Position numbers and translations under genes: made by a program
NCBI GenBank assembly: GCA_036852015.1
Contig: JAANDG010000367.1
Coordinates: forward strand, 62,001-126,000
Reading direction: 5' to 3'
DNA from: Pelodera strongyloides
Taxonomy: Eukaryota > Nematoda > Chromadorea > Rhabditida > Rhabditidae
DNA length: 64,000 nt
The notes under the pieces: generated by a model
The model's input: only the letters and a program-made list of their open reading frames with translations
Told to the model about the DNA's origin: nothing
Databases searched by the model: none
In this document: piece by piece, positions 11,279 through 48,000 of the stretch
Layout of the letters: each line of letters begins with the position of its first letter
How positions within the stretch are numbered: the stretch's first letter is position 1

Positions 11279-12253
11279 TTTGATTGCATGAACGAAAAAT
11301 TGGGGTATTGGACGAGTGGGGGTCGAACCCACGACCTCTGGATTACCGGTCCAGTATGCTAACCACTACACTACCGCCACCCACACCCAAATTTCGTTCT
11401 TGCTAGCGACTTATACGGCTCGCCTGCAACACACAGTGGGCGCATAGCACCACAACTGCCTGGGGGGTTATAAACCACAATACCAGCTAGGTGTGCATAA
11501 CCGGAAAGAATTGATTAAATGAAGGCAAGACCTCTCAAGGCTGGTCAGGCCAAAGTTTAGTTTGATTGCATGAACGAAAAAAAGGGGTATTGGACGAGTG
11601 GGGGTCGAACCCACGACCTCTGGATTACCGGTCCAGTATGCTAACCACTACACTACGCCACCCACACCCAAATTTCGTTCTTGCTAGCGACTTATACGGC
11701 TCGCCTGCAACACACAGTGGGCGCATAGCACCACAACTGCCTGGGGGGTTATAAACCACAATACCAGCTAGGTTGCATAACCGGAAAGAATTGATTAAAT
11801 GAAGGCAAGACCTCTCAAGGCTGGTCAGGCCAAAGTTTAGTTTGATTGCATGAACGAAAAATGGGGTATTGGACGAGTGGGGGTCGAACCCACGACCTCT
11901 GGATTACCGGTCCAGTATGCTAACCACTACACTACCGCCACCCACAACCCAAATTTCGTTCTTGCTAGCGACTTATACGGCTCGCCTGCAACACAACAGT
12001 GGGCGCATAGCAACACAACTGCCTGGGGGGTTATAAACCACAATCCAGCTAGGTGTGCATAACCGGAAAGAATGATTATTAAATGAAGGCAAGACCTCAA
12101 GGCTGGTCAGGCCAAGTTTAGTTTGATTGCATGAACGAAAAATTGGGGTATTGGACGAGTGGGGTCGACCCACGACCTCTGGATTACCGGTCCAGTATGC
12201 TAACCACTACACTACCGCCACCCACACCCAAATTTCGTTCTTGCTAGCGACTT
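11279..12253 (-). repeat. Tandem ~280-bp repeat with an embedded tRNA-like sequence, minus orientation (3.5 copies)
   Basis: Unit starts (TTTGATTGCATGAACGAAAA) fall at about 11279, 11561, 11841 and 12121, a period of 279-282 bp. Read on the minus strand, each unit holds a pol III-type module at about 11305-11384, 11587-11664, 11867-11944 and 12148-12225: an A-box-like TAGTGTAGTGG, an anticodon-like arm CTGGA-CCGGTAA-TCCAG, and a B box GGTTCGACCCC with a good T stem (GTGGG/CCCAC). The loop has C where tRNAs have U33, and the acceptor stem pairs poorly, so these look like tRNA-derived repeats (SINE-like) and not working tRNA genes. The rest of the unit (CAGCTAGGTGTGCATAACC, AAGGCAAGACCTCTCAAGG) is unrelated to tRNA. 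Confidence 0.75.
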
Positions 12254-12936
12254 ATACCGGTAATCCAGAGGTCGTGGGTTCGACCCCCACTCGTCCAATA
12301 CCCCAATTTTTCGTTCATGCAATCAAACTAAACTTTGGCCTGACCAGCCTTGAGAGGTCTTGCCTTCATTTAATCAATTCTTTCCGGTTATGCACACCTA
12401 GCTGGTATTGTGGTTTATAACCCCCCAGGCAGTTGTGGTGCTATGCGCCCACTGTGTGTTGCAGGCGAGCCGTATAAGTCGCTAGCAAGAACGAAATTTG
12501 GGTGTGGGTGGCGGTAGTAGTGGTTAGCATACTGGACCGGTAATCCAGAGGTCGTGGGTTCGACCCCCACTCGTCCAATACCCCAATTTTTGTTCATGCA
12601 ATCAAACTAAACTTTGGCCTGACCAGCCTTGAGAGGTCTTCCTTCATTTAATCAATTTCTTCCGGTTATGCACACCTAGCTGGTATTGTGTTTATAACCC
12701 CCCAGGCAGTTGTGGTGCTATGCGCCCACTGTGTGTTGCAGGCGAGCCGTATAAGTCGCTAGCAAGAACGAAATTTGGGTGTGGGTGGCGGTAGTGTAGT
12801 GGTTAGCATACTGGACCGGTAATCCAGAGGTCGTGGGTTCGACCCCCACTCGTCCAATACCCCAATTTTTCGTTCATGCAATCAAACTAAACTTTGGCCT
12901 GACCAGCCTTGAGAGGTCTTGCCTTCATTTAATCAC
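12254..12936 (+). repeat. Same ~280-bp tRNA-like repeat, inverted (about 2.4 copies)
   Basis: At 12253/12254 the array flips: the minus-strand copy breaks inside the unit (CGACTTATACC) and continues into GGTAATCCAGAGGTCG read in the opposite direction. Plus-strand tRNA-like modules follow at about 12256-12295 (partial), 12506-12578 and 12785-12857. The last unit breaks off at 12931 directly into a unit of the 176-bp family. Together with 11279-12253 this makes a large head-to-head palindrome of about 1.6 kb that could extrude a cruciform or give long double-stranded RNA. Confidence 0.75.
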
Positions 12937-16779: not shown

Positions 16780-19700
16780 ATGGATTCGGGAATTGGGTGC
16801 GACTCACCGGCTCCAAGCAGGAATGCGGATCGTCGCCGGCGGTATGTTTTTTTCGGTTGTGATGCGTGTTTATTTTTTCGTTTGTAGTGCGTATTTCGCT
16901 TGTGATGCGTTCGCATTGTGTTGGTCTTGTAAGTCTTTCTTTGTACTGTTATTTACCCTGTGCCTGATTTTTCTTCAGGTGCGACAATCCGACAATCTTG
17001 GTTAGTTTTCTCAAATTTTGGTTTTCTTAGGTTGACAGTTACTGATAAATGTTCGGATATTATCGCTGAGTTGAGAGGAACCGTGAGCCGCTTGCAAGGC
17101 CTTTGGGATCAAGTGGATATGCCAGAGGAACTAAGGTATGGCAATATTTTCATTTCGAAGTTTATTATAATACGTACAAATTAATTTGTTCAGTTTGTTG
17201 TGCCACTCAGAAATAATAATAACCATTTGCCTTCGCAAATGACCACGGAACGCGCTAACACACCGCGAAAACCACCCGTTTCTTAGGGCGCATTCGAGAT
17301 GGGCAACTACCGGGAAAAAAAGTATTTCGAGATGGACACCGAAGAAAAATAATACATGAAAGTAATTGCGGAAAATTGCGATGTACCGTAGCTGAAACTA
17401 AAATCAATCGATTCTTTTATGCATGCCAGTCTGCCAGTTGCATTTTTTCCGTTGGTCCATTTCGAAACATAACTTTTCTTTTCCGGAAAATGCCCATCTG
17501 GAATGCGCCCTGATGAAACTTACCCGTATGTGTATTTCTTCCAGTTGTGTGTTAGAGGGGGGTTTTCTTGAATAATCTATGTATTTAGGGTATCACGTTT
17601 GAACAGCGCGTTTGAGCTAATATCGAACCTCCAATCGGATATGGTATGTCTTACGTTCATGTTATTTTTATTATATTTTTTATAATTTAAATTTAAACAG
17701 GGAATATTTGGAGGAATTTATATACTTCGTGTGTATTTTTTTTTTACTTTAATTATATTATCAGATTGAAAGCGAATCGGACATGGTTCGCGGTGTTCAT
17801 GATAACATTGCAAAGGGACTGGAGAAGATCAATTTGTTGAGGGAAAGGCTGAAAATGGAACCGTGGACCACGGATCGAGCCAAGGATGGAAGTCTTCGAT
17901 TTGTACGTTTTTTTTGTGTAAGATAGTCTCGCCTCCGTTTGGAAATCAGAGACTGCATTCTTCTGGGCTTTGCGCAGTTTAAAGGAGCTCTGTAAGTATG
18001 TAGTATTTTCATGTAATCTGCTACCCAGGCCAAGTGCCCCATGTCTATTGATTTGTAAGGCACCTACCTTGCTCACAATGCTCATAATTTTTTTTATAGC
18101 GTAATCAGGTCGAAGATGAGGTTGAGCGTTTAAATAGGGAGTATGAAGAGAGAAGAAAGGATCAAGCAGAAGTTTTCGAGGTAAGCCAACAAACATTTAC
18201 CTCTGTCTGCATCTGCCTATAATCTGGACTGGTGATTTGGGTATGTTTATATTCATAACCAATCATTTATCTCAACTTTTCGTTTAGAAATTGTCTCGTG
18301 TCGCTTTCCGCACTGGTGTGGATATCAATGGACTAATTCCGGAATCAAAACAGGTTTTCATTTTTTTGTGAGGATGAGGGATGAGGCGATGAGTTTCATA
18401 ATTACAGACTTCATAATTATTTGATTCTGAAATGGATTTTTGTTATTTTACTGAGACATAAACCCCTTATAGCTTCTTCACCCCTCTGATCTCGGTGTTC
18501 TGGTGGCGCGTTCAAACGAACTTTGCCATGTCCTAAACGGACGAGTTTCCGAAGTACAGAAATGGCAGGAACAAGTTCGCGGATTGCTTCGCAGAATGGG
18601 TGTGTTTTTTTTTTAGTTCATTGAATTCACTGAATACATTTGCTCGCTACATGCTGCCTTTATAAATGACAAGATTTCTTCTTTTTTTTTTGTTTTATTT
18701 CCCTAGTTAACTGTTTGTTGACAGGCATTGAGTCTCTCGGAACTGAGGTAGCTGATGTTATGCTGGCGAGTGACGTCACCCACGAAGACTTTGTTTTGGC
18801 TCCAGCAATCATGGAGACATTTGAAAAGGATGTTGTTGAAGTGGTATGTTCATGATTCATATTATTGTTGTTATTAAATGGAATATATATTTCCCATATG
18901 AATGGCTGCTTGGACAATATAGTTTAAAGTGTGGCTCAGCACCGCCCTAATTGTATATATAGAGGTAGAAAAAGCCGCAATTTATTACCTTTAGGCGAAT
19001 AAGCGGTTCGAGGAATGGCTGGCCACTCTACAGTTTTCCTATGACGAGAAGATCATTGCACTACACGAATTATGGAACAAATGTTGTGTACCAAAGGAAG
19101 ACCAACACTTTGAGAGTGAATTTAATCCTGGTACGTACTCACTCGACCTCTCACTCACTCGAAACACGTCATGCAGATCCTATGACTAAAATATAACCAT
19201 TAGGCATTAGGGTATGTGTGGTGTAGGCGTTTACATTGTTAGCATTTGTTCCCAGTTTCCATGATTTAATAACGTGTTGTTTGGCAGTCAGAACATTCGA
19301 CTATTCGACAATAAAATAAAAGGAGTTGCGGAGTTCACTTTCTCTTTCAGTCCGTGAACTTATTCTATTCCATGATCAGACAGAATATTCAAGATTAAAG
19401 AAAGTGCCATGCGGACACACGGGCGATCATTGATCATTTAGATTCACTAAATAATTATGAATTTCCAGACAAGCACACACAAACGGATATCGCCGAAATG
19501 GAACGAGAACGCCAGAAGCTGGACAGTCTTTATAGTGCAAGGAAGAACGTCAGGGTTTTCTATATGGATTATTCTTTCTCTTTCGATAAGATACTTACGA
19601 ACGTTTTGTTGCTTTTTAATTGAGTCAAAATTATTAACTTGCTAAGCGACAACAATTTCAGGTATACGATAGAGTAGCTCAGTGGTCCGAGTTATGGTCC

Positions 19701-21364
19701 GAAAAGATTGGTTATGAGGATATCAGTCAGAAGGACGCATACACGAATAGAGGATGTGAACTGGAGCGAAGGCTCAAGGTGATTTAGTTGTGACTGAATT
19801 GTTTGCACACTCTTATTGGAGCTTTATTTGCTTAATTTCGAATAAATTCAAAGGGTTTCATGTTTTAAAATACTTTCCTTTGTTTAATGAACTCAAATTA
19901 TTCTTCACTTATTGATTGAACTATCGATTGAATATAAAATATTGATTGCAGAGAACCAGGGAATTGGAAAACCGTTTGTTGCCGCAAGCCGTGCGGGCCG
20001 TCCAGGAAGCATACGCAAGACATGTTCAGGTAGGTGTGGTAGCTTTTATTAAGAAACACAGTGCGATAGGTAATGAGGTAATTAATAATTATTCGTTCAC
20101 TATTGAGAACAATTGTGTTAGGCACCATGTGCGTGGTACGTGTACGTACTGAATTTACTAGAACTGGGGTTTTCTATTTGCTGTATATTTGGAGGTTGCA
20201 GGCTTGTCCTACTGATAAAATGGAGATGGGCGGAGGGATGAACCCCGTTCAATTTATAGAGTGGACTAAGAAGACCCATGAGGAGGAGAAGGCTTTGGAA
20301 AAGGTGAGTCTCATTTACTTCTGCTCCTATAAGATCCCCTTGTTTAGCTTGGTGAAAGCTCTGATTTTTTGTACACGCTGATTTATTATTCAGTTTATTT
20401 CTACTGTGTTTTCGGCCACCCCTTACAGATTGAGGCTTTCTGACTGAATAAGTAAGTGAAAGCTCATTTATTTTATTTTATCTATTTGCAGATGATGAAG
20501 AAGGGCGCGAAACATATGCCCCCACCGATGCGTACCCCGATCCGCGGCAACAGATTGACCCAGACACCGGCATCAATGTCTAGATCAGGGTATAAAATCG
20601 ATGTGTATTTCAAAAATTTCCGGAGATGGTCGCCGGCCTTCGGCCGGAGATGGTCACACTAATTTTTCGTAAAATATGTTATTTTTTCGATTCTGTAACT
20701 TTTGTAGTTAATCGAAAAAGCTGAAGGTAAAAAGAAACGTATATAGTCAAGGGAAAAGTGCATTTTTGGTACTTACACGTGAAGTAGGTATTGTAAATTG
20801 TAACTGGTTCTCGGGTACTTTATTAACACAGAAAAGGCTTCCATTATTAATAAAAAATGTGAAAAAAAGTGTAAAATCGGAGATGGTCAGGTACGATACG
20901 GAGATGGTAATGCGTCATTTTACACATTCATTTATACCCTGGTCTAGATTGAATACCAGACCACTCAGCCAGTTGGATACCACATCGCTGTCTGTGATTA
21001 GTCCGAGGTTTCCAAATTCAGTGAGTTTGTGTATTAATTATTTTTTAAATGAGCACCGCAAGGATTCTTGTGCACCGTTGGACTTTTTTTTCTTACCGAT
21101 GGCATTTGTTGTGGAGACAGGATGCCTTAGGGCAATCGCGTCAACGATCATGATTTAATAGACATATGTCCGTATGATAATAGATTAAGTTGCCGGACGG
21201 ACGCTTTATACCACTTTTTTCCATTATAGCCTGGACCTAAAACATCGTCGCCGAAATCATCGAAAAGAAGAGGGAATATGCAGCCAGGATGCCCGACTCC
21301 GCTTAAAAAGGCATTCTCGTCTGTGGCCATGTCTCCTATGAGACCGTCGAACAGAAATATTTGA
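16780..21364 (+). CDS. spd-1: PRC1/Ase1/MAP65-family spindle midzone microtubule bundler (SPD-1-like)
   Basis: Sixteen exons join in phase: 16780-16841, 17031-17135, 17589-17643, 17765-17902, 18100-18180, 18288-18353, 18473-18599, 18725-18843, 18995-19130, 19469-19554, 19662-19778, 19952-20029, 20202-20303, 20492-20589, then 20960 (or 20948)-21020 and 21230-21364. The product is about 521-525 residues. Family marks are the N-terminal coiled coil with LQGLWDQVDMPEELR, and the spectrin-like microtubule-binding part with LWNKCCVPKEDQ, QWSELWSEKIGYED, and TNRGCELERRLKRT followed by LPQAVRAVQEAY, closely matching the conserved TNRGG...KLQKMLPKLE region of PRC1. The C-terminus is Ser/Pro/basic (SPKSSKRRGN, TPLKKAF, MSPMRP), as expected for a CDK-regulated tail. 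PRC1 proteins cross-link antiparallel microtubules in the anaphase midzone and are needed for cytokinesis. The start ATG lies in a short exon encoding a basic leader. The junction near 20590 is formed by a transposon (see findings). Confidence 0.85.
17285..17511. mobile_element. MITE in an spd-1 intron
   Basis: Terminal inverted repeats of 21 bp with one mismatch: AGGGCGCATTCGAGATGGGCA at the left and its complement (TGCCCATCTGGAATGCGCCCT read on plus) at the right. The element is 227 bp and non-coding. It lies wholly in the intron between 17135 and 17589. I could not define a clear target duplication. Confidence 0.75.
20586..20941. mobile_element. hAT-like MITE that forms an spd-1 intron
   Basis: A 356-bp element beginning CAGGGTATAAA and ending TTTATACCCTG, flanked on both sides by the identical 8 bp GTCTAGAT (20578-20585 and 20942-20949). 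CAGGG termini with an 8-bp duplication fit hAT superfamily non-autonomous elements. The interior carries a CGGCC hairpin and repeats of GGAGATGGTC. The 5' splice site of the surrounding intron (GG|gtataa at 20589/20590) lies inside the left terminal repeat. Related elements with CAGGGTA ends lie at 47599-47772 and 53354-53509. Confidence 0.85.
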
Positions 21365-22327
21365 GGTTTGAATCGATCCTTATGATGTACACGTACAGAG
21401 GTTAGTTCACTTTGTGTATTGTCCATGATTATTTATTTTGTTATCTGAATGCTGTCTTGATACGTTTTCGTTATCAGAACTTTTACCCTCATCTCATTAG
21501 CGACATGTCTATATTTTTTTCTGTAAATGCATTTTTGGTAAGCATATTTTCTTAATTATTTTGGTTTGTTTGTTTGTTATCTCATTATTCTCCTATTGCA
21601 CTGTTGCACTGTTGACTGTATGTACTATATATAATTTATTGTTGTCTCACCCTGCTCACCCTTATTCATCACTCCTTCATGACCTCATTCACACTTATGT
21701 TCTCACTTAACTTTAAAAGCTCAATATACCACATTATTTATCTCACTTTCTTTTTTTGATCTCTAAGTAACTTATTCGACTTATTGTTTTGGAAGTTGGT
21801 CCTATTAGAATTGGAATATGCCTTGACGACTTACATTACCTTACATTTATTTATATAGTTCTACTTTGCTGTAATCCTGACCTGAACGTACCATTTTCGA
21901 TAGATCTTTTCTAAAAACAACTTTTTTACGCTCAACTTTACGTTTGGAGTGAATTTGATGTCTGTAAACTGTAAATAGTTCAACTTCTATGTGTCTCCGT
22001 GGGAAGTGTTTTCATGGGATTGGGGATTTGCTCACTATATTTTATTTTCTATGCTCTATTACTGTATTTATAATCCACTGTTTGGTTCTGTGTTCTGTCA
22101 TTATTGGCATGCAGTTATATATATATATATATATATTATCAATAAAGGTTCCCTGGTAATACTTTTTTCGCTCAAGTCTCATATCCGTGAAGGTTTTTAC
22201 AGATCCTATATGGTATTTGAAATTTTTCCGCATATTGTTTCGCTCTAACTAAATCTGGTTACTTTTTTGAGTGCCGTATATTTAAAATTATCTTCTGCTT
22301 CGTATATGATCATTTTACAGGCTCATA
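21365..22327. other. Intergenic between the PRC1-like and TFIIE-beta genes
   Basis: No gene recognised in this 0.96-kb AT-rich spacer. A (TA)n microsatellite lies at about 22117-22136. A TTTTACAG acceptor at 22313-22320, seven bases before the next ATG, is a likely trans-splice site for the downstream gene. Confidence 0.55.
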
Positions 22328-24858
22328 ATGGATCCGGAACTCTTACGACAACGTGCGGCCTTTCAAAAGCATGCGTCACGCACCGTGAGTTGTAAACGTT
22401 CAACCCTACATTTTTTGCTGATCATGCTAATGCTTCCGTAAATTAAGTTTGCCTTGTAGCATAACATAAGTATCAACTACATGCATTTTATGTAGTTGAT
22501 AATTATGTTATGGTTGTTAGTTGTTAGTTAGCGTATTTGATAAGTGATGAACTTCTCAGGTGTCGGTACAACAACGTCCGTCTGGACAACTCCCGTCACA
22601 TTCAACGTATAACGCAGGTGAACTTTATTTTGGAATAACGCATGTTGTTGACTTGATTGTTGCTTCCGTTGCGTGATCGACTACTGTAGATCGTATAGCT
22701 AGGTATCCAAGTGTAGATAGATCCACAGGGGTAAAATACGATGGTGTGGTCGAGTCTTCTAAAAGGTTCGGCAGTATTTTGTAGGGGGTCTATTTAACCT
22801 CGATTCACGTCATTTTCCATTCCCTTTCCGTGCTTGCCCCATAGAATGCTCTTATTTTGCACATGCGTACATTTTGTCGTTTAGTTTACAAACTGCCTCA
22901 CAAACCGAGCTCACGTAACCTATCTGTATATTTCAGATGAGCATAAGAAGAAAAAGAAGACACCAAGGCCTCCCAATGGCGAACAAGCAGTCGTGAAAGG
23001 TTTGTTTTTTATTTGCGTTTTTCTATGAACTGCCTAAAGTTTATTGTTTTTTTTTAACTTACATGAACTTAGCGATGGATATGGAAATGAAAGCGAGTGC
23101 AGTATCAAATGCAAATAACTTTGGAGCGATGGCTAAGGTCGTCGATTATATGAAGGTATGATATTTTGTGCATCATACTTAAACTGGATGAATGTAGCTT
23201 GTTTGTATTCATAACTACAGTAGTAGTATGATTATGTGGCATGAGCCTCTCGCGTTATTGTTTTTTTATGCAATAAAGTATTTATGTGTACATTTAACTT
23301 CCTCCTTTCTTCAGAAGAGACACTTGAATTCACAGCATTGGTCTCTCAGTTTGTCAGAAATACTGGAAGAAATTCAAATTTACGATCTATCCAAAAAGAG
23401 CGAAATGTGGCTTATGGAGGTAATACTTTTCCTTAATTTATTCGAAATGTGACATAGGCTGCGAAAACATTAGTTTTGGATCTCGTTATGTTTCCATAAT
23501 TCTTATTGTTTTTTTTTGTATTTATTTGAGATCTTTAGGCTTTACCCAACAATCCGCGTCTCCAAATGGATTCCGATGGAAAATTTGTATTCCGACCTCC
23601 GTATAAGATCAAGAACAAGTCAACTTTAATGGGTGTTTTAGAAAAGTGGCATACGGTATGGGTATCTATCAGTTTGAAGTATGAAAACATTTGTATTGAT
23701 TATGCGTGGAATGTAACACGAGGAGAATTTGTTGGGTCGGATGTGCACTCATGTATGTTTGGTTTTCAGGATGGCAAGGGTGGTATTTTATTAACAGATC
23801 TGAATGAATGCGTGCCAAGCGGGGAGAGTGTCCTTGAGGTGGGAGATTTTTCATACGGTGATTACACTTTGTCACTTTTGAGCTGGTTATTTCCGATTGT
23901 CGTCGTATTCAGGTAGAATATTAGATTTTTTTAGAGTTATGATTTTTTGGGACGGTTGGCCTTCCCATAAGACGCTTATTTTTCCATGGGACCGCTATTC
24001 TTCCATGGGACGGCTATTCTTGAATAGAGCCGGATATTGAACCCTAATTCGGTCATCCATGTCCATGCCGTTTCATTATTTGCCTTGTCATAGCCTTTCT
24101 TCTGTACTCCTTTAAAAATTCTGGAACAAATTTATTTCTTTTTATTGATTTTTTTTTCAATTGTCTCGTATGTTTAGTCCTTGAAAGATAAGATCATTGT
24201 GGTGCCGACACAAGTAAATAAGAGGAAGGATAAGGTGTTCTTCTTCAACGACCTCACTTTGGATATAGAATTGGATGAAGGTAATAAATCTTAACTTTTT
24301 GTTTATTGCTTGTTATTCACTCTTTATTTGTATGGTTTCATATTTTGAGAGGGTTATATAGGGAGAGGAAATACTTGTTATTTAGATTTCCGTGGATTAT
24401 GGCGTAATGTGTCAGTGGATCATTTGGATGAGAAGAAGATTGAGGAATACCTCCAGAAACATGGAATCGACACAATGAAGGTGAGCGAGTTTTTCCCCAA
24501 CATCCAGCTTGGCCTGAGCAAATGTGTGAGCTCACCTAACTATCTCCTAAATTTTCATAATTCATAAATTTTCTTTGCTCATGATGTGCAAACAGGTTGA
24601 GTACAGGATGTACGCAGCACTTTTGTCTTATTGAGAGTAAACAGTTGAAGATGAGGTCTCAACAAACGCCAAGACGCCAAGAAGCCGAATAACAAGATGT
24701 AGTCGTAAGCCACTAGTTAAATGTGTTTCTACTTATAGGACCTCGCGCCAAAGAAGCTGAATAATGGACCTCCGAAGCGAAAACAGATCAAGAGAAAGTT
24801 GAATCCCAGCAAGGTTCAAAACCAGCATTTGGCGGATGTACTCAAGGATTACGAATAG
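22328..24858 (+). CDS. gtf-2E2: Transcription initiation factor TFIIE subunit beta
   Basis: Ten exons join in phase: 22328-22384, 22560-22617, 22937-22999, 23073-23155, 23315-23419, 23539-23655, 23770-23838, 24178-24280, 24386-24480 and 24739-24858. They give 289 residues, close to the usual 290 or so for this subunit. Recognisable parts are the basic KHKKKKKTPRPP leader, the first winged helix (MAKVVDYMKKRHL ... LSLSEILEEIQIYDL, then FRPPYKIKNKSTLMGVLEKW), the second winged helix (GGILLTDLNECVPSGESVL, DKIIVVPTQVNKRKDKVFFF), the signature D-FRGLWRNVSVDHLDEKKIEEY, and a lysine-rich C-terminal helix (PKRKQIKRKLNPSKV). TFIIE-beta binds TFIIE-alpha and single-stranded promoter DNA, and brings TFIIH into the pol II preinitiation complex. 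A TTTTACAG acceptor lies seven bases before the ATG. Nothing appears damaged. Confidence 0.9.
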
Positions 24859-25118
24859 TATATGTACACATATCATATCATGGTCTCATTGCGTATGAAA
24901 CGAAAATAAGATATTATTTTACCCATTCGTTTTGTTCCTGACTATGAATTACGACGTTCTGACGTTGTTCGTATATGTTATTCACATTTGTGATGTGTTT
25001 TTTTATTCAACGTGTGGCGTGCTTGCTTTGTTCATTCACAAGTGGATACGTAATTAACTGATGTATTTTTCCAGGCTCTTTTCCTCAACGACTGGGTTCT
25101 CCCGAATGACTGGCACCC

Positions 25119-26957
25119 ATGCAGATAAGATGGCTGCAGTTGAGGGGTTCAGGTTGGTAGAGTCATTTTTTATTTTATAGCTTGGACCAGATAACCAGAT
25201 AATTTGAGACGAAATGTGTGTTTGCCTATCTGTCTGTGACAGTGGGCGACTTTTTATGTATGATCTTTTCTACCGTACTTTTCTAAAGCTAGTTACTTAG
25301 ATTTCCCTGGCCGTTTCCCAAACATCCACCCACCCGTGGGTATCGTCTGGCCAGTTATGCGACACTAACTTTTGTTCGATCTCTATCAAGGCTCTTGTTC
25401 TTTAAAGGCTAGTTGATTGTTATGTGTGCGTTCTTTATTGAGAGCTACATGCAAATATTCTGGTCAGTTTGAACTGAAAGTTGCTCTTTCTTGCTTACAT
25501 ATTCATATCTTTATCTTTTGAGCAAGTTCGTTTTGTTATAAAAGTCTAGTCTCCTATGATGATTTAATTTATATACTGCTTTGTGTTGCAGGCGTGAATA
25601 AGTTGCGAGTTCACAACAGAGAGCGCTTTATTCAGTTGCTGGAGGATCGATCGAGACCCTTGGTTACGATAGCCAACCATCGATGTAACATTGACGATCC
25701 ATTGATGTGGTGTGAGTTGTGCACGTCATATCCTCATTTCTTAAAAGAATAACTGTAAATTGTTCTTAAAATGTCACAGACACAGAAAGGTTAACTTTCA
25801 GTAGTAGAGTTTGGTTTGGTCTTTTTTTATGTAGAAAATTCTAGGTTTAATTTCGTGGAAAGAATTCTTCCGAAACATCGATCGTCAGAGGTTTACGCTT
25901 GCTGCACACAATATATGTTTCACTAAACAGTCGCACACTACGTACGTGAGTTGATGCTTTCAGTGAATATCTTTTCTGCATTACATATCAGTCCTCGGAC
26001 TACTTCAAAACATTATAATAATTAACCTTCGCAGGCTATTTTCGCTGGGTCAGTGCGTCCCCTGCGTCCGTGGGGAAGGTGTATTTCAAAAAGGAATGGA
26101 CTTTTCTGTGGAAAAATTGGACGAACGGGCGTGGGTGCACATGTTTCCAGAGGGAAAAGTCAACCATGAGAATGCACCTATGAGGTTGGTTTATTTCCCA
26201 GATTTTAGGTGCCTCGCTCTCTCCTCGGCTAAGATATGTTTCCTCTGTTTGGTACATCTCTATCCCAATCGTGTGTCTCACAAACTTTAGTATCTTAATA
26301 GTTCAAACTGCTTTAGGGTGAAATGGGGAGTGGGCAGGCTAGTTCTGGAACCGTCCGTCGCACCAATCGTCCTTCCAATCTGGCTAACCGGCATGGACAC
26401 CGTTTGGCCGGCACATCCACCCTACTATCCTAAGTTTGGCAATGTATGTACTGTATACACTGTTTAATCTAAAGGTGGTTTAGTTGTAAAGTTAGTCTCA
26501 CCGATTAGTTTTCTCTAAGTGTAGTGGATTCGGTTGTCCCGCATGCCCTGGAATTATAACGTTATTTTCTTCGGATATTAGAGAGGGAGTGAAGCTATTC
26601 AATCTATTCAGACGGTTGATATCACAATTGGCGATCCATGGGACCCACAAGAATTTCGAGATGATCTCTTCAAGAACGACTACAGCGAGCGCCAAAGGCG
26701 AAAGGTATGTTTGCGTATGAGCGGGTTTATTGTGTTTCCAATGAGTTTATTTCTTCTTTATTGAAAATGTAATAATTTGATAGTCATATCTTTTGCTGTG
26801 ATTTTCTTTAATTCGTTTATTGTTATTTCAGGTAGTGGCCGACGAAGTACAACGGTTACTGTACTCTTTGGGTGAGAAGTTGGGAGATCTGCCCAGGGGA
26901 ACTGTGGGTGCAATGGAGAATATAACTGACGGAAAGGAGTTGGAAAAATATCGGTGA
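25119..26957 (+). CDS. acl-3: Tafazzin, cardiolipin transacylase
   Basis: Seven exons: 25119-25152, 25592-25711, 25845-25941, 26035-26184, 26317-26443, 26582-26704 and 26832-26957, giving 258 residues. The glycerolipid acyltransferase motif I is present as NHRCNIDDP (HX4D type). Tafazzin-specific stretches follow: [46 protein letters not shown] (motif III), KWGVGRLV and [14 protein letters not shown]. Tafazzin remodels cardiolipin acyl chains on the mitochondrial inner and outer membranes. The first ATG after the acceptor at 25074 is at 25106 but is out of frame with the rest. The in-frame ATG at 25119 was chosen because its phase alone fits exon 2, so translation would need leaky scanning or an alternative first exon. 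The gene starts only about 215 bp after the TFIIE-beta stop codon, which allows a shared transcript. Confidence 0.88.
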
Positions 26958-27482
26958 TGTTCTTTATGAAGGAACTCTGTTTTTAGCGATGATATTAGTT
27001 TTATAAAGGTTAAAAATTATAGAGTATAGTCATTACTTCAAGTCACAATGGTGTTATAGTGATTGTAGGATTGATGTTAGGTACTAGATTAGTAAAGTTT
27101 GGCAAATTGAAAATTGTTAGGCTCGGTAGCTTTTTCCGGTAGCCGGTTTCCCTTTTTTAGATTTTTTTTAGGAACTGTTATCGCAACACATGATCACAAC
27201 GAGTATGCTTACATTTGTGCTTTTAATGTTATTTTTATATTGATGCTAGGCAATGAACCGTTTTGTTTGTGTTACATCGATGATGCAAGTAAGATTTCTG
27301 CCCAGTTCAGGAAATCATAAACAGATTCCTCAGCATTTGTGTTGTATAAATTGAGTCCAGTGGTTTTCATCCACTTTATTTACTTGAACTTTTGCATTTT
27401 TGTTTCATTGATTGGTTTCAACTTGCTCTCAACTTCTAATGTTAGCGAAGTTAACGTAAACACTATTTATTCATATTTACAG
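26958..27482. other. Spacer between tafazzin and succinyl-CoA ligase
   Basis: 525 bp of AT-rich sequence with no gene. It ends in TATTTACAG immediately before the next start codon, a probable trans-splice acceptor. Confidence 0.5.
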
Positions 27483-30400
27483 ATGTTTCGGTGGTGCCGG
27501 TCCTTGGAAAATTTCAACAAAGCAGTATTACAGGTGCTACTAATTTGTTTATGTCAATTTTTGTTCGTTTTGTCACTGCATTGTTCTTTATTCTTGTCGT
27601 AGGACGCCGGAAATTAGAACATTGAGTGGATGAAATTGATTTCAGGTTTCAGGAAAAACTGTTTGATTTCAGGGTCAACGGCGGCTTCTAAACTTGCAAG
27701 AATATCAAAGTAAAGGAATATTGGATAAGTACAATTGTCAAGTGCAGGAATTCGTTGTTGCTACGAACAAGGAAGAAGCTGCAAGGCAATTGAAAGACAC
27801 AACGTTTGGTGGGTTTCTCTTCGGTACACACGCTAGGAGTACTGTTTGATAACCTCTTCCGAATCCTACGGAGTTTGGCGGAGTAATCTGCCTTCTGGAC
27901 TCTGGACGTCTGGACCGTGAACGTCCCTTTGACTTTGTTTTATTATCACATTAGTTTTGCAGAGGAATATGTTGTAAAAGCTCAAATCCTGGCCGGCGGT
28001 CGTGGAAAAGGACGCTTCGTGGGTGGGCCGCCGAATCTCGGAGGAGTATTTATATCCACAAAGTATGGTTTTGGTACTTTTTGGAGCATTACTTTACTCG
28101 TTGTGATATTGCCGTGTTTTTATCCTCAGGATGATCACGAATACGAATCGAAATCAGCAAAAATGAATTTCGAAAAGTTTTTGGTTACGTGAACTCAACT
28201 GGTACCGGAACCGGCCAGGCAGGGATCAGATCAGCACTGTTCGGGTGAATAGATGTTTAACTGTTTCCTTTACTTTAGTAAGGAAGAAGCACTGAATAGA
28301 ATTCCAGAAATGGTGGGAAGAAAGTTGGTGACCAAACAAACTCCTAAGGAGGGTGTTCTCGTTGAAAAGGTTGGTGATTAAATATGAAATTCTGTTTGCA
28401 GGGCAAACCGCTTGGACCCTGCAAATATGACTAACGTGGCATGCAGAGAGCCTTCGAAACACAAGCCAACACAGACAGGCACCTGAAGCCCCTTCAAAAT
28501 CAACTTATATTACGCTATCGTAATCAACATAAAAACTCAATCACCATAATTAGCTTAATGGTCGTAGCTGCTTTAGAAATCTGTCATTAACTTATAGACT
28601 GGTGAGTTCAAATGTTTAGGTTATGGTCGCAAGAGGAGTCAATATCGTCCGCGAAACCTACCTGGCCATCCTGTTAGACAGAGAAAGCAACGGCCCAGTG
28701 GGTTTCTTGATTTTATTTTTTTATTTTTCGCCCATGTTGGTACCCAGAGTGCTTTCTACGTATACGTATTGCATTCTTTGTGAGATTTATGTTTTGTACA
28801 AGAGTACGTTCTCGACTTTCAGGTCGTTGTTGTCAGTCCGGCGGGCGGTGTTGATATCGAAGAAGTAGCGGAAAAGAATCCCGAATTGATCTTTAAGGTG
28901 CTTTGTTGTTTTTATATTAATTTTATTTCGACTGGTTTTATTGGTTCTAAGTTCCAACCCTCTACTCTTGTTGCATGTACGATTTACGGTACCGAAATTT
29001 CATGTTTAGACGCGATACGCGATAGAGGCCTTTGAAAACGTTGTTTTCTTTCCTTTTTTTACATGCTCACGTACGACGCAGAGATTATAATGTGCGATTT
29101 TGTTCCAGGAACCAATTGATATCCAAGAAGGAATGACCGTAGAGCAGTCGTTGAGAATAGCGCGAAATCTGAAGTTTGAAGGGGACCTTGTGGACCAGGT
29201 CGGTATTGTATTCGTCCTTTTCTGAGTTATGTTCTTTGTGTTATTACGTGAATTCGTTTTATGAGATGATTCGATGGTGTTGTGCTTGGTGTTTAGTTGC
29301 CTTTTGTCGTTTAAATATCTGCGTTTATCTTTACTTCCACACAATTCAGGCTGCCGAGCAGATTCGCAAACTCTATCAATTGTTCATCAAAGTCGACGCT
29401 ACACAAGTGGAAATCAATCCATTTGTGGAAACAAAAGATAAGAAAGGTGGAGCCGCTTTATTTGATTATTCTCAGAGTCAATTTCGCCATTCTGCCTTCT
29501 ACCTTAGGGGATGATAATACATCGCGTCGGGTTCTTGTACGTATTTACTTTGGTGGTTTTACATACATTTTTAAACAATACAGTATCCATAATCCTTTGC
29601 TTTGCAGTGTACTGTGTAGATGCGAAAATGAATTTTGACGATAGTGCCCAGTTCAGACAGAAGGAGATTTTTGCGATGGGCGACATGTCTGATATGGTAC
29701 GTTTGAGCTTTTTCGTACTACAATATATGAATAGTGTCTGTAGATTCTTAAGATGCTGGTGCACTTTATTTTAATTTTATCTAGAAGATACATAATCTGT
29801 AGGCAACAATAAGTCAAGATTATATGCAGAATACTTGTGATGTGGTACGGTTTCAGGATCCTCGCGAAGTTGAAGCTCATAAATATAGTTTGAATTATAT
29901 TCCAATGGAGGGCAATATCGGATGTCTAGGTTGGTTATATATCCATTTTGTTACTTGCATCTTTCCAACTCTGTGAATGCCACACACCGCGCGAACTCCC
30001 TATTTGTTAGTCGGATACAGTAGGCCAGTAGGAACCCAGGAACTACAGTAATATTAAAAAGTCATGTTACCGTTACAATCTCAACGTTTGTACTTTCCAG
30101 TGAACGGTGCTGGACTGGCAATGGCTACAATGGACATCATCAAATTGCACGGTGGAGAGCCGGCCAACTTCTTGGATGTGGGGGGAGCAGTGACCGAGGA
30201 AGGAGTCTTCCAGGCATTCAGGATAATCACGTCGGATCCACAGGTATCAATGTTACTAGTTATTAGATATATCGTGGGTAATTATGATTATGCTCCCCAG
30301 TTCCTTTTTTTTACTTTGCGTTTGGAGGGAGAGTAGTAGAGTGGATAGCGTTTTCAGTTGTACCACCTTCGTGTCAGTATTAACTGAATTTAGTTGTTTT

Positions 30401-33400
30401 GTCTCCGTCTTTTCCTGACTCGTCTTTATTTATAGTTCGATGTATTTTTATCCATCTGGGACTTGACACTGTCATGTTCCGCGTACGTGTGAACAGGATA
30501 GGTAGAGGTAGAGAAATTTATTGGCGAATAATTCAAATGTCTGATCGCCTCGTAGTCAAATTCGGATCCGATTATATGGTAGTTTTCCAATTGTATCTTT
30601 TTTGTTTACCTCTCTCTCATGGCATAAACTCGTTGACGCTCTGACCGACGAAACCACCATCCGAATTAGCATATTGCATAAATTTAGATGGTGGTCTTGA
30701 GCTCGTAGCCATACGGATTAGAATATTAGGTATGGTGAAAATCAGAAGCGTATCATAAAGAGCTACAAGTTACGGAAACACTACATATATTTGGATGGTG
30801 GTTTTGAGCTTTTCCCGACGAGTTTCCGACGACGAGTCTCTCTCTCATCTTGCTAGTGAGATTAGGCGATGGGGTTAATCATTTGCTAGTGCATAGAATG
30901 GATCAGTTCATGCCGGCTAGATTAGGATATGATAGAAATCCTGCGAGAGTGAGTGATTACATAACCTAGTTTGCTCGTTTGAAAGCATCGTTAGTGGATG
31001 CTTACTGTATTGGGATTGGGGTATTTAGAAAAAGATAGTCGGTAGAATCATCGCTTCTCCATACTTTCATTTTCCAATGGTGTAACTTATTATTCTGTTT
31101 ATAACAATGATGGGTAGAGCGCTGTCATATAACATTCGTATTCATCTGATTGTTGATCTATTGTAATTGTAGGGGTTTGGGGTTTACTCGGCGAAGCAAT
31201 TACCATATCGCTTTGATGTGGAACTCTCGTTCTCGTTGTTAGCCGGTCCCCGTTTCTCGTTCCTCTAGTGGTCTAGTGGCGCACCACACATCTACCCCTC
31301 CTATACCATGACACGTGACCCACCATTAGCCCGCTGCCCCCGTCCCTTCCCTCTAACTAGTGGGAATGGTGGGATTACACGAGTGCCCACTAATTCGAAT
31401 GTTAAACACTGAGCGGTGATCAACTGGATGAAAAGTATGAATGAAGAAAAGCATGAATGAAACGTTTGTGGCAAAGCGATCGTAGCTTCTTGCTTGGTAT
31501 GAATCTGAGCCAGAGGCTTAATTTGGGGCTTTTAGCGCTCTATGACCCAGTCCTACAAGGGCCTCTTTCTCCTGCTTTCCCACAGCTATAGACTAAGGTC
31601 CTCTGCTTTGCTCCATATCCTGGGTGTTTGCTTGAATTTTTCTATTTTCCACGTATACGTATAACCTAACCTCCCCCCCCATTCACTGACGTGTTCTACC
31701 ATTCAGTGTATGTGTATATGTGGTCAATGTCTCCGATTCGTTATTGCGTGTCAAACAGAACAGGTGCACGTGATGTTATGCGTGGCGTGGTGTTGCGCGT
31801 CTGGCGTTCCCATTCTGACCTAGCCCTCTTGCGTCACAATCGCTATTCAATGAATATCTCTTACTTGGCATCAGGTCATTGGGTAATTTGATGCGCCATA
31901 TTCTTCCGCTGTTGGCAAAGTTTATTAGCACCGATCTTGATGGCACTAGTGACCAGAACAGAATCAGATTTAATGAACTTCAAAAACAACAAACGAGTGA
32001 TGAATCGGTCGTTCGATGTTTATGATCTGAAAAAGCGTTATAACCGGTACATGTTGAATGGTTCCCTCGTTCCCTGATATGATAGTTTAAATAGCGTGCA
32101 AGATTTTTTTGTTGGAAGAGCGGGAGGTTATTCAATATCCGCATGTCTTACATTTTTCGGTCTATATATCTCACTTGAATTAAGGGGTAGGAATGGTTCC
32201 ACTAGGGATTAGTGCATTAGTCTGTCTACATAGCGACTTTTTGAGGTTCTGATGCCCCGATGGGCCCGTGAACTTTCAGTTTTCCCGCCATGTCTTTCCG
32301 GTACTCGGTGTCTCATTCAACGAGGTCATGCGTGCACCTCATCAATATCTGCCACAGGCACGCAACCTGTGACCCGAACCGCTTTAAAGTGAACGGTTCT
32401 AGACAGGAAATGATGGGCCGATGGGCCTACTGGTTTGAGAGCAAGTGGGTGCAAATCTTGACGATGTTGGTGCGAAGAGCATAGAGAGATAAGTGTGCAC
32501 TTCCAGTTTATTAGAGATGGTACACTGAGTTCAGCGAACCATTATTTATATAATTTAAGCAACATTAATGAGAGGCACCTCAATCCCTTCCGGTTTGTCT
32601 TCACTGAGTCGTTTCACGAATGTGGCTCTAGTTGAGCACAGTTTTCGGAACTGTTTTTCACTCTCCGCGGGTGTTACCGAGCATGTGGTGTGGTAATGAT
32701 TGTTTAATATGCCATTTGAGAGTGTTTTTGTGGCGGGCGTCCGTCACTCACTTACACATTTTGTGTTGTACAAATTGTTCTTAATGTTCTTAACTAGAGC
32801 CGAGATGTTTGTTGATGGAAACTGACTATAGTTTGTGTTGATGGGTGGAGTTTTTTGGACTAGGATAAACTAATAATAATTACAGTAAGATCCTGTCTGT
32901 GAGGGTTGTAAGCTGTAAGGCGGAGTACTGTTGTCTAAACTAGAAGGAATAAGCAGTCGGTACAATTTAAGAAGTCCGACCATGTAGTTGAGTGTTTTCT
33001 GGACTACTTCCTTGTTTTTCTATTCCATGCCCTTCTAGATGGTGAGGTCATTTTCAAATCTCGCAACATTGCTCTTATCAGCAATTAGTACTGCAAGTTT
33101 GGCGCCTGTGCTTATCTCGTGACCGTCTGATTCAATATAATGTTGGCTGACCCCACTGTCTTTTTAGCTTCAGATACCCGTCTTATCTCGTTATAAGGCT
33201 TCACGATGTTTCAAATTCAAATTATTATTCACAAACGATATCGCCTAACAACTACTATAAGTCTATCTTATTATATAAAGGAGAAGAGTTTACTTTTTTG
33301 TTTGTGTGAACGTAACGAAACTTGTTCATAAACGAAATCAAACACACAAAACGTTCGTATCGGATGAGGCTCGAACCTGCCACCTCTGGCTTCATAGCCC

Positions 33401-36400
33401 AGCGCTCTACCTACTGCGCTATGCTGGCTTAGGGAAAGACAATCTATCCGCTCTACACAAGAGAACTTCCAGTGTCAAATTGTTAAATTTGCATAGCACA
33501 ATACAATTAGTCGTTTCCAGGATTCATAATTATACGTTTTCCCAATTATATATGACTATTAAAGCGAATATGTAGGCACTCAAAATGAGCAAAAAAAACG
33601 CGAAACTAGCGTTTACATAGACGTTAATTTAAATAGGCGACTGAATATGTAAATACGAATTTGCATGCCCTGCATCTTGAATCTCTATTTGCCGACGTAA
33701 GTTGAAATTTGCTCCATCAGACCCAAATATATGCCACGGGTCTGATTAACGCGTTTACTATGGAAAAGGCGATTTGTAGTTCATTTTCTTTTAAGTGGGT
33801 AATTGTAGACAATTTTTGATATTTATTTCATTGATGGGGACACGCATTCTATTAATACAACTTAACTTCAAAAATGGCCTACATATTCCCTTTAACGTGT
33901 GAAGCAGAGAGGGAAGAAGGCATACTCATACTTTTTTTAAATAGGGTAAAAATTTGGCCGAAGGCCGATTCCTCCAGAAGTAGGGCTCTTCGAACGGCTG
34001 GTAGCTGTATTCATGTATTCCGCTCCCCGACGTTTCAATTTCTCTCATGCCCTGTCCATGTTTGCGATTCGCACTTGCGAAAATGACAAATGCCTGTCCA
34101 TGTTCAGGCAAATTTACATGAATGTCAAATGCCTACCGTAACCCATGCGAATAACGCGTTTGACATAGTCCCGCAACGAAGTGTATCAGATCCGTACTCA
34201 TTGAAATAGATCAGTACTATTTTGAAATAGATCCATACTAGATGCAAAATCGCTGCGGGACCTTGTCATTCACATTGACTCGAACATGGACAGGCATTTG
34301 TCATTTTCACAAGTGCGAATCGCATACTTGGACAGGGCATCACTATCTCGGCCTCAAGCTCTACGAAGCGCAAGCACATTCCTTTCCCGCCCATTCTTCC
34401 AATATTTGAATATAACTTGTCCGGCAAGAGATTTATTTGTCTGCGCCCTCCTTACACACACCAAATTCTTGCCTGAGGCACAGTGTTCGGTTGGACTGCT
34501 GCGGTAGGTTGACTCTGCCTTTCTCTTTTCTCTCTCCTTAGTTTATCTCGCAACTCTCCCTCGTTTCGCTCTCTCTCCCTCCCTCTCATAACTCTCCCTC
34601 CCTCTATGCTCTCTGGTAGAAAACTGCTCAGCCTCCCCCTTGCCCGAACATCACTATCCAACATACCCATGAGCTATGAGGGGGCAGTACCCTTGTCCTG
34701 AGGGCTCTATTACGTTTCCCGCACTCTTGATAGTAGCTCCACTGCGTCATCGTCTTCACTAACGCCACTATTCCATATACGCTCATATTGTGTATTACCA
34801 TACTCCCATACTGTAGTTAGTAGTATGTACCGGCCAGTTTCCTTAAAGCGAAATGCTAGCCCCTTTGGAAAATTTACATATGATAAGCAAATCCTATGTA
34901 TCCTATGCTAATTTTGTACGATCATCCACCGCAATCGTACAAAATTAGCATAGGATACAAAGGATTTGCTTATCATATGCAAATTTTCCAAAGGGGCTAG
35001 CATTTCGCTTTAAAATACTGTAGTTTAACCAGATTATTATTCACTTTTCTTAGCTTATATTCTTCTATTTATATAGTGCGATGTTGATATGCAACAGCAA
35101 CAGTGCAACAGTAACGTAAACGCCGGTACAACTATCTTCCATTTCCATTTCCATTGCATTTTTTATTTTTTTTTGTGCTAGTTTCCTTACTTGGTGACCT
35201 GCCAACTTTAGCTCCTAGATAGTTGTTCCCTGTGTTTGGGGTCATAGGTCCCTGTTGGTGTCGCAGGCAGCGGTTTTGCGGTTTGGGGACCGGTGGTTCT
35301 CTCGTCCGCTCTCCCGCGTGACCCTTTTGGTGTCTACCACGCACTGGTACAGCCGGGTCACACATCGCCCTCTCCCGCCATCTCCTAGGGGGATGGTCAG
35401 TCAATGGTGCACATTGGTACGCGTTGCGTGTTCGCGTCACGTTGTACCAATCGGCAACTCGCACGGTCCCCGACCCTTGCTTGGCATTTCTCTTCCCTTT
35501 GGTCCGACCATTGGTCTGCTGCTCTTTTCCCAACCTACGCCTTTATCCTTCTCATATCGTTTGTACTTTTAAGTGCCAGGTTTCATTCTAGTAGGTAACA
35601 TTTTCTTCACTGTAAGACTGAAAGTAGTTTGAGCTTAGTGTGTCAGTGTTGTCATATATCGAGATCTGATCCTCGTGCCCTATGTTCTCTTATTATCAGT
35701 ATTCTCAGCGAATAATATGTCTGACCTTGACTCTGTTAGTCTGTTTCCTGGAATGTTGACCCGATCCATTCTGTGCCTGTCGGTCTCATCACCACCTCTC
35801 ACTGTAGCGGTCAGCCCTCCCGCGTACAGATAGACGCCCGGACTGATGCGGTGCTAAGATAAGAAGGCACAAGAGGAGAGTAGACCTTTACACAGTCCAC
35901 TGCCACATACTGACACATCCCTTAGTAGATACATGTTCCCCACCGTCCATAATAAGACATGTTAGCTGATATCTTTTCGTATTTTCCCTGTTTTGAACTG
36001 ACTAGTATGTAGAGTGCATTGTGCTTAAACGCGGAGAGGACGTAATTTGCATAATCTCCCAAGTGCACGTAGAAGTGACCGATTTCCAAACTGTCGTGGA
36101 CTGGTTTTTCCGTTTTGATCCCGTTATTCACTGAAACTCCGGAAACTGTAATGAAGGTCGATCGACCGCGTACCTTGCGTGTAGTCGTTCTACCGTACAT
36201 TGATTAGAACTCTTCATGCCTAACTAAACTGTGAGACTGTGCCCCCAATCCACTATCACTCTACTACCCTTCCAAGCTATTTGGTATCAATAATCAATTT
36301 GTACTGCAACTCGGTCGATACCGTTCGTGTACAACATTGGTAATGTACCCGTAATGGATATCGACTGAGTTGCGGACAAATCCCCCATGCAGTTACTTAG

Positions 36401-45017: not shown

Positions 45018-48000
45018 CAAAAACCTTTCTGCCAGACTGCCAATTTACCCTGTTTTTAACAACAGTTAAGTGTTTGGAGATCAAGGTCACTTAAAGTACT
45101 TTTTACACATAAATACATGTACACAAAAAATATTCCACATTTAAATACCAGTCCGACACAGTTTTATGTACTAATGGTAAACTTCTTTTGCCTTACCATC
45201 TAGCGTCCTACACACTTCCGATGAGTTAATGATCCATTTGATGTGTTTTGTGTGTACAAAATAAATACTATATTATTTCTGTGTGAACAACACAAATATT
45301 CTATTATCACAGGAAATGTCTTTGAGATTTGAGAGGCATGTTTCTGGAGGAAATAACAAACATATTCAGCCGTCAGCCAAGGCATTTACTCACGGCATGC
45401 TGATAATAACAGACAATGTGCCAATTGCGCCACAACATTACCACGATGCACTTCCTCCATGATGAGAACTTGTTCTCTCTATCCCTTCCCTTTGCAGGAC
45501 TGGCAGTAAAGGAAATAGAACGTGACACATTCCTATTCACAGCAACCCCGTAAAAGAACCTGATAAACAGGTGAATATTCACCTATATTCACCTTGACGA
45601 GCTAGACTTATATGGTTAGACAGTTTCATTTTTTTACGACACGACCCATAGAGAAAGACGTTAGTTGCACCTCACAGCTATAAAGAACCTGCCCCTTACA
45701 TGACCAGCCAAGCCAGGTACAGGTTCGAGGATTTCCACGCGGTCTCGGCAGCTACGCACAAAGGAAGCAAGGCATATATGCACAAAACACTGCTACACAT
45801 TCGATCATGCATAGTGAGCAGCCTGAATCCCATTCATTTATAACTTAGCTAATAAAGTTGTCTTATTATTAGAAGGCATAATGAAACCCTTTTACAATCA
45901 CGGATGAATGACAATGTTTTAAAAGCTCCTGTCAACATTATGAATGTGAAATTTAAAAACTCCTATTAACCTCCTAGATGAAAATTTCCATATAGCGTGA
46001 CAGTAGGACAGTTTCTGTTACATTTTCTCATGCCCCGAAAAATGTTTTACGTTTTCTTGTCTTGTTGGAGCTGTTCTTGTGCCGTAGGTCGTAGTCCTTT
46101 GGTGAAGAACCGGTCAGTTAGACACCTAGCTAATACTCTCTACCGCTCCTTCTCTCTCCCTCTCTCCTTCAAGCTGGCTCTTCTTTTGAATGCGATGCCT
46201 TAAGCCATGCGCATTCAACTAAAACCCTCACCCACCCCAAAATTTTATATTCCTTACTTATCCACAGTGGTACCCCACCCTAACAGACATATAGATTTGC
46301 ACAATACAATCGTAGGCACTTTAGCCATTATTCATATCGACTATATAATCTTCAATCGATTCAACGTTCAAAATAGTTTCGCAATTAATGTTTATGTTAC
46401 AAGTTTACTCAACAAGAAGGACGCACATTGATTACTGATTCCAGAAAAGAAAGGTTATGTTCTTTTGCAGAATATATTTAACGTCTGTCAATTAACTCAG
46501 AAGTAAGATAGCTTTTGTAATTACACCGTTATTCCACTGCTAAGTCGACAATATTTATAAAGAACAATCCTCCAATGTAATGTAATCTTGTAACAAGATC
46601 TCACTTTCCCTTTCTCATTCACCCTTGTTTCACTAGAGACGTGACCGGTTTTCCTTCACTGACTTGTTAATTATTGATTAGATTCATATCAATTGCTGCT
46701 CATTGACACACTTTCACAATTACGCGTTGTCTTCTAAAATACAATTAGATCTTTGCGTATCATAGTTTAGGCAAACCTAAAGCGGCAAACTTCGCTAGCA
46801 ACCTGAACCAGCTTACTAGATGTACCTAAACCATGTTATAGCTAACCCTCTTGGACATTGCAGAATTAGAAACTACGAAGCATTGCCCGACATTACGAAT
46901 TAAAGGAAACCTTCGCATAGCCTACGGTAGTTCAATTAAAGCCATATTTAATTATTATGCAGCTATGTCGTGAATGTCATGTGTTCAACGTCCAAGTTCA
47001 AGTTAATCAGTTTGATTTGTATTTATGTCTTACAACGGCTCGCACAACACACAACACCATCCTGATTTGATCCTAATGGATACCGATTTCTTTTTGTTGA
47101 TCCGGTTCTCTATTCCCCTGTCTCTAGCTTATAATAATCAAGAAAACCTGATCGAAAATTTCGCTTTCAACACTCAAACCAGATCCTTCGAGGGCGCTAT
47201 TAATCAAAATCCACGTTTGATCATTATTTTTTGATCTTATGCTAGCTATTTTTTCTAAAACATGCATAAATCTTATACCAAATATACTTTAATATTCACG
47301 TGGCTAATTTCCCTTACAAAAATCGCCGAACTATCCGACTTCTTTTTTTTCACTTAAATCGGAACCAGAGACCGAAATCAGCAATTTCTAAGGATTTCCA
47401 TCGCTCAGCATCTCAAAATCCTGAATGATTTTGGGGGATTTCATGGATTTGCACCCGATTTTTAACACAGCGTGGCGTGTGAAAAAGGCAACCGGTTACA
47501 CTCAACAGATTTTGGGTCAGATGAATGTTAAGTAAGGAGGTGCAAATAACGCCGACATACGTTGCTTGCTGACCATCGTTAATAACAGACTACAAGCTCA
47601 GGGTATAATTTCCGTGCGTAAATGGAGGTGGTTGGGGGTGGTTTCTTTAGCTTAGTGATAGACAGTTTTAATAATACGCCATGTTTCGGTCGAATATATT
47701 AATTTGCGGAGGTGGTCAAAACCAATCCGGAGGTGGTTCGTGCGTGTTTTCACGCACTAACCTGTACCCCTGCAAGCTCAAATGACTTCTTTGGCCATGA
47801 CTCACAGAAATTTAGTTCTATAGTTACTAAATATTTCCTAATAAGGTGGCGTGCGAAATATATATACTTGAAGAAATCTGGATCTACAAAATACGGCAAC
47901 AGGCAAGGTTTGGTGCATTCGAGGGTTTCCTGAGCCTGAGCAAAAACAAACTGAAAAATGCTTACAAATGTTGGCTATGAAAGTAGAAAGTACATCACTA

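Follow-up and report, generated by a model that had tools for sequence, protein, structure and literature searches.

A hAT-like MITE in a coding exon of a spd-1/PRC1 paralogue of Pelodera strongyloides, a candidate source of a new intron

The maize Ds element, a non-autonomous hAT element, is spliced out of the messages of genes that it has hit in an exon, as shown on mRNA, and in nematodes Tc1 insertions are reportedly spliced out of C. elegans mRNAs (the work of Rushforth and Anderson in 1996). The locus described here, in the spd-1/PRC1 gene of Pelodera strongyloides, resembles the Ds cases in that a non-autonomous hAT-type element with an 8-bp target-site duplication (TSD) lies in a coding exon, and differs from them in having a nematode host, an apparently older copy and splicing that is only predicted from the sequence. 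With Tc1 it would share an exon insertion in a nematode that is tolerated by means of cryptic splice sites, which is said to be the feature of Tc1; however, Tc1 belongs to the Tc1/mariner group, duplicates TA and was studied in laboratory mutants, whereas the present element has an 8-bp TSD and was found in a genome assembly.

Introners have ends like those of DNA transposons, and in some of their families the element brings the 5' splice site while the TSD provides the 3' one, according to excerpts of PMC9860276, where some are also described as adding codons (four codons in Aureococcus). Within the animals and land plants of that survey of 3,325 eukaryotic genomes, introners were confined to two animal groups, and the word stem 'nematod' is absent from its main text (PMC9860276). 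The spd-1 insertion is like an introner in being a transposon in a coding exon with a TSD, with a candidate 5' splice site in its terminus and a candidate 3' site in the TSD, but introners occur as several intron copies per genome, whereas here one copy among the 32 screened that have a TSD was found in a host exon. According to the excerpted text of a study of 104 nematode genomes, no source sequence was found for 168 RNA-confirmed new Caenorhabditis introns (PMC9169325). In our case a candidate source is identified, whereas the intron is predicted from the sequence and theirs were confirmed by RNA. No case of a MITE turned into an intron in nematodes was found in the titles and abstract beginnings of the open-licence PMC literature.

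The window analysed is a stretch of 64,000 nucleotides of contig JAANDG010000367.1 (C367; positions 62,001 to 126,000) of an assembly of 160 Mb, and the features of the locus are given in Table 1. The gene had been read as spd-1 (PRC1), and this label is right: the element-free protein contains a MAP65_ASE1 domain (Pfam, E 7.5e-16), the one protein relative found was PRC1 of Caenorhabditis angaria (26% identity over 90% of the query), the PRC1 structure 4l3i of the PDB gave a weak match (E 9.8e-6), and the identity to seven Caenorhabditis SPD-1 proteins was 29-30% over the alignment. A protein search with residues 246-345 alone gave no match. The tail downstream of the insertion, including GPxTSSPK, is conserved in the seven Caenorhabditis proteins, and S470, I472, P474, G481, P482 and T484-K488 are invariant in the comparison with them. 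A K/R-L-N motif that had seemed to align with Caenorhabditis across the insertion point vanished once the paralogue described below joined the alignment. The whole frame of 525 codons is open and the other splice sites look ordinary and intact.

Table 1. Positions in the window of the spd-1/PRC1 gene, the inserted element and the candidate splice sites
Feature	Position	Strand	Sequence or remark
spd-1/PRC1 gene model	16780..21364	+	16 coding exons, 525 aa if 20590-20947 is spliced
Interrupted exon, coding part upstream of element	20492..20585	+	left TSD included; homologous to start of C242:79525-79722
Left TSD	20578..20585	+	GTCTAGAT
MITE, non-autonomous DNA transposon	20586..20941	+	356 bp, CAGGGTATAAA...TTTATACCCTG
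Left terminal inverted repeat (TIR)	20586..20596	+	CAGGGTATAAA, 11 bp, perfect
Candidate 5' splice site, left TIR	20590..20591	+	AGG|gtataa, 3.24 bits
Alternative 5' splice site, inside element	20603..20604	+	GAT|gtgtat, 3.38 bits
Subterminal repeats, n=4 (20622, 20646, 20879, 20900)	20622..20907 (span)	+	GGAGATGG, read from sequence
First in-frame stop without splicing	20660..20662	+	25 residues past last shared codon
Strongest internal 3' splice site	20830..20831	+	aacacag|A, 5.15 bits
Second internal 3' splice site	20889..20890	+	ggtcag|G, 3.42 bits
Right TIR	20931..20941	+	TTTATACCCTG, 11 bp, perfect
Right TSD	20942..20949	+	GTCTAGAT; holds candidate 3' splice site gtctag|A (20947/20948), 1.02 bits
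Interrupted exon, coding part downstream of element	20950..21020	+	donor TCA|gtgagt at 21021
Candidate 3' splice site	20958..20959	+	aataccag|A, 1.75 bits
Last exon	21230..21364	+	conserved GPKTSSPK tail motif

Elsewhere in the window, six tRNA matches (Rfam) were observed within 1.5 kb on both strands (11308-12857), three of them with identical scores, and this is possibly a tRNA repeat array. Directly downstream of spd-1 and on the same strand (22321-25710) lie what we take, from motifs, to be genes for TFIIE beta and a tafazzin-type acyltransferase, and their spacing is suggestive of an operon. At 55991-61216 the gene finder gave a four-exon open frame of 1355 aa, which may be a retroelement polyprotein.

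The description of a 356-bp element between identical 8-bp duplicates was confirmed, with perfect TIRs of 11 bp, TSD copies identical at 8/8 positions and a real repeat family. When the flanks were joined with one TSD removed (20492-20585 and 20950-21020), they formed 165 nt with 55 open codons and phase 0 at both ends, so that the coding frame does continue across the removed element, as had been claimed. The interruption of 364 bp is not a multiple of 3 and its removal restores the frame cleanly; the element and one duplicate account for all of it, the TSD is flush with the coding sequence on either side, and no intron remnant was found outside them. The rejoined exon had a coding score of 3.1 bits in its true phase, which places it between the 95th (-1.3) and the 99th (3.5) percentile for windows of 165 nt taken from 38-55 kb. 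Exon 15 alone scored -1.7 and exon 16 -11.1, and neither looks coding by composition, so the coding status of the flanks rests on homology.

A second spd-1/PRC1 gene was reached through a weak DNA match to exon 13 (C242:78962-86093; L015 and L085). Its recovery covered 14 exons, from exon 2 to the last, whose frame is open throughout up to the stop codon, and 346 of the 500 residues aligned with the focal protein were identical (69%). All 13 of the other introns compared had the same position and phase in both paralogues. The counterpart of focal exons 14 and 15 is one exon of 198 nt (C242:79525-79722), which lies between the same pair of phase-0 introns and reads LMKK...PASASRLLGSQRP...RFPNS; the focal gene has MMKK...PASMSR^LNTRP...RFPNS, where the caret marks the element. 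An insertion of the transposon into the penultimate coding exon of one spd-1 paralogue is thus well supported, and the exon hit that the sequence-only reading had inferred is shown by an uninterrupted exon among common introns. The whole paralogous exon, together with the constraint downstream, shows the interruption to be derived, an insertion into a constrained exon and not a MITE within an older intron.

Downstream of the insertion point (68 codons) pN between the paralogues was 0.20 and pS 0.83, close to the values for exons 2-13 (0.18 and 0.75), and the 31 codons just before the insertion were less constrained (0.33 and 0.53). Synonymous differences near saturation indicate that the gene duplication is old, and most of the constraint on the downstream tail must predate the insertion. 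The paralogue is two residues longer at the insertion point (SRLLGSQRP, SRLNTRP in the focal protein), which shows that a change of length is tolerated there. The focal copy of the element had 13 private substitutions over about 340 sites, a round figure (~3.8%), the highest of the six copies compared, with 0-9 in the other five. If the copies radiated in a star-like manner, the insertion is probably not brand new, and having the most private substitutions among the copies compared it has probably persisted.

The focal family is small, with 13 matches in the assembly, the focal element counted, which include two copies of nearly full length (348-349 bp) and four that are longer (6.4, 6.4, 2.4 and 2.5 kb) and have similar ends. 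A perfect 8-bp TSD was present in all seven of its copies with both ends, those of the window and C127 counted. For a sister family with CAGGGTATAAATTCCGTGCG ends, 415 left ends were counted when up to 3 mismatches were allowed, against none in the reversed control. To this abundant sister family belong the elements at 47599 and 53354, which had been listed as relatives and are indeed related; the two 8-bp TSD copies of the element at 53354 differ by one mismatch, and the flanks of the one at 47599-47772 repeat only CAAGCT in a shifted register, with no clean 8-bp TSD. Exact 8-bp TSDs were found for 28 copies over both families (7 focal-family and 21 sister), and the remaining copies examined had a mismatched TSD or no clean one.

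The hAT elements prefer targets of the form nTnnnnAn and have short TIRs starting with CAG or CA. The perfect 11-bp TIR CAGGGTATAAA is of this kind, and 8 of 27 TSDs fitted nTnnnnAn, against 1.9 expected from composition, with a T at position 2 in 18 of 27. The sizes also agree with the TIRs of 10-25 bp and TSDs of 8 bp described for hAT elements in excerpts of PMC3942097. The hAT transposase profile PF05699 had one match in the genome, with stops inside; PF14291 and the P-element-type PF21787 had no match in the genome, and the control genomes gave none either. Among 10 ORFs of two long copies (L047 and L048) no transposase domain was detected, and one sub-cutoff match to DUF2208 appeared. 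Two relatives of 6.4 kb (L046, C71, 1072-7464; L047, C593, 840-7237) have near-identical ends, a long internal inverted repeat and ORFs of the same sequence on both strands, with no recognisable transposase. The name hAT-like, already used for the element, is therefore supported by TSD length and target preference as a structural label only, since no transposase was found for the family in these searches.

Candidate splice sites were scored with matrices built from 33 introns, 14 of spd-1 and 19 predicted at 22300-34000, the latter being exon boundaries from a self-trained gene finder that still merges genes. The donor at 20589/20590 and the acceptors at 20947/20948 and 20959/20960 that had been proposed exist and keep the frame, adding two codons with the first acceptor and giving a net loss of two with the second. 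Four of the 33 reference donors scored as low as the donor at 20590 or lower, and 20.6% of the GTs of the window (both strands) scored as high; for the acceptor in the TSD, two of 33 reference acceptors were as low or lower and 26.6% of the AGs of the window (both strands) as high. The listed acceptors, however, were not the strongest that keep the frame. Among 58 frame-keeping, stop-free pairs the best joined 20603 to 20831 (8.53 bits), making an exon of 20832-20941 and adding 45 codons, and the second joined 20590 to 20890 (6.66 bits, frame kept, 21 codons more); the pairs 20590-20968 (5.05) and 20590-20959 (5.00) were third and fourth, and the TSD pair 20590-20947 was sixth (4.27 bits). No change private to the focal copy fell on a named splice site in the copy alignment, inspected by eye. 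The iterations of the gene finder differed in this region, the first giving an intron at 20605-20947 and the last using the donor at 20590 and skipping exons 15-16.

With the donor after CAGG, an AG keeps the frame if it occupies duplicate positions 5-6 or 2-3, and in the focal TSD it lies at 5-6. In 4,894 simulated exon insertions in both orientations, 1,860 (38%) had a frame-keeping AG in the TSD or up to 16 nt after it, and 505 (10.3%) scored at least as high as the focal TSD pair. When the element was shuffled 500 times with its dinucleotides preserved, a near-exact pair (net change up to 12 nt) that reached the real score of 5.00 or more appeared in 26% of the shuffles, and the reversed element gave the same near-exact score, 5.0. 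The donor had been thought to depend on insertion in the right orientation; it does not, because both TIRs begin CAGGGTATAAA and a terminal GT is present in either orientation. On this evidence the terminal donor is real, independent of orientation, of some use and ordinary in strength.

We favour the explanation in which the whole element is removed as an intron over partial splicing and truncation, and give it an about even chance of being correct. A hAT-like element inserted in the exon, duplicating 8 bp of coding sequence, and the spliceosome would remove essentially all of the element as a new intron of ~358-379 nt, from the GT of the terminal repeat (CAGG|GTATAA) to an AG within the right duplicate or shortly beyond it, so that the gene would survive with a change of +2 to -5 residues in the C-terminal tail only. 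The acceptor would have to come from the target, the donor being independent of orientation owing to the common start of the terminal repeats. We lean to splicing because the unspliced protein would be truncated, its translation ending 25 residues into the element, while the insertion has probably persisted and the whole frame is intact. Under neutrality some 10 disabling hits would be expected over a gene of such length, with assumed fractions of stops and indels, and the frame is intact.

The main competitor, which we regard as possible but not probable, is that no productive splicing occurs, so that the protein is truncated in the element or the mRNA degraded, with the function provided by the C242 paralogue. 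The candidate splice sites are weak, and the C242 gene, whose frame is open in all the exons recovered, could stand in for a damaged copy and make loss of the tail easier to tolerate. The focal protein is also slightly more diverged from the seven Caenorhabditis SPD-1s, with an identity to each slightly below that of the paralogue, and departed from them at 42 sites before the insertion and 5 after it (32 and 3 in the paralogue), which are small numbers. The 206 nt after the insertion, if neutral, would be intact with a probability of ~0.27 (stop and indel fractions assumed), so that loss of just the tail is compatible with the data; the argument from the gene body is separate. According to excerpts of PMC4557309, CYK-4 binding in C. 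elegans maps chiefly to the N-terminal portion of SPD-1, so a truncation inside the element would spare it. Against this explanation, the rest of the gene has not decayed, all 525 codons being open and its splice sites ordinary, despite the ~3.8% of private substitutions in the element, and the downstream tail has been under long-term constraint, though this mostly predates the insertion.

An unlikely alternative is partial splicing, with a shorter intron inside the element (20603-20831 or 20590-20890) and a protein enlarged by 45 or 21 residues that the right part of the element would encode. These pairs head the ranking given above, and the strength of the acceptor at 20831 was reached by only 6.8% of the AGs of the window (both strands). 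However, in 17.2% of 500 dinucleotide shuffles of the element the best pair scored no lower than the real one, an insertion of 45 residues in a conserved tail would be a larger change, and the acceptor is common to most of the aligned copies, not an adaptation of the focal one. It is very improbable that an old intron at this site merely hosts the MITE: other copies do occupy host introns, as in an apparent C-type-lectin gene (L043), but here nothing of an intron remains beyond the element and TSD, the paralogue, which shares the introns on either side, has none at the insertion point, and the exon upstream of the element has only two GTs, of -5.2 and -1.5 bits. An assembly chimaera or a rare polymorphic allele is hardly credible, since the perfect TSD, the complete element and its greater private divergence than in the other five copies speak for an old, real insertion, even if an empty allele could be missing from the assembly, where no second allele of the locus was found.

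From 10 further copies (three with an exact TSD, one with two mismatches, five with no clean TSD and one with no right end) the three exact ones were added to 29 copies with up to one mismatch, the focal one included, and in these 32 we looked for frames that stay open across the empty site. Exon hits can escape this screen, which covered a minority of the 415 sister left ends and not the C127 copy. The focal spd-1 copy was the one host-exon insertion of the 32, and no second case was found among the 31 others. Four copies (L043, L037, L049 and L089) lie in or beside introns by eye, three of them in what we presume from sequence motifs to be genes for a C-type lectin (L043), an aldehyde dehydrogenase (L037) and an FCF1-like protein (L089), and the rest are undecided or non-coding. 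In L058 (1501-1663, reverse strand) a sister element splits an ORF that resembles a reverse transcriptase from its motifs.

The proposal that each family member may carry a ready-made donor stands as to its presence, which holds in both orientations, but this donor is weak, and the copies screened gave no second host-exon case. It is conceivable, although we consider it quite doubtful, that the CAGGGTATAAA elements form a low-rate introner-like system, of which spd-1 would be one case of several, and that MITEs of this kind are the source still missing for introns gained in nematodes; an orientation-independent terminal donor would then let some exon hits survive as new introns.

The mechanism is already known from maize Ds and introners, and what is new is a plausible, identified source for an intron gain in a nematode. 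A single genome displays the insertion, its source family, the duplicated target and the paralogous exon without interruption, which makes this locus a concrete, testable candidate for a DNA transposon making a nematode intron.
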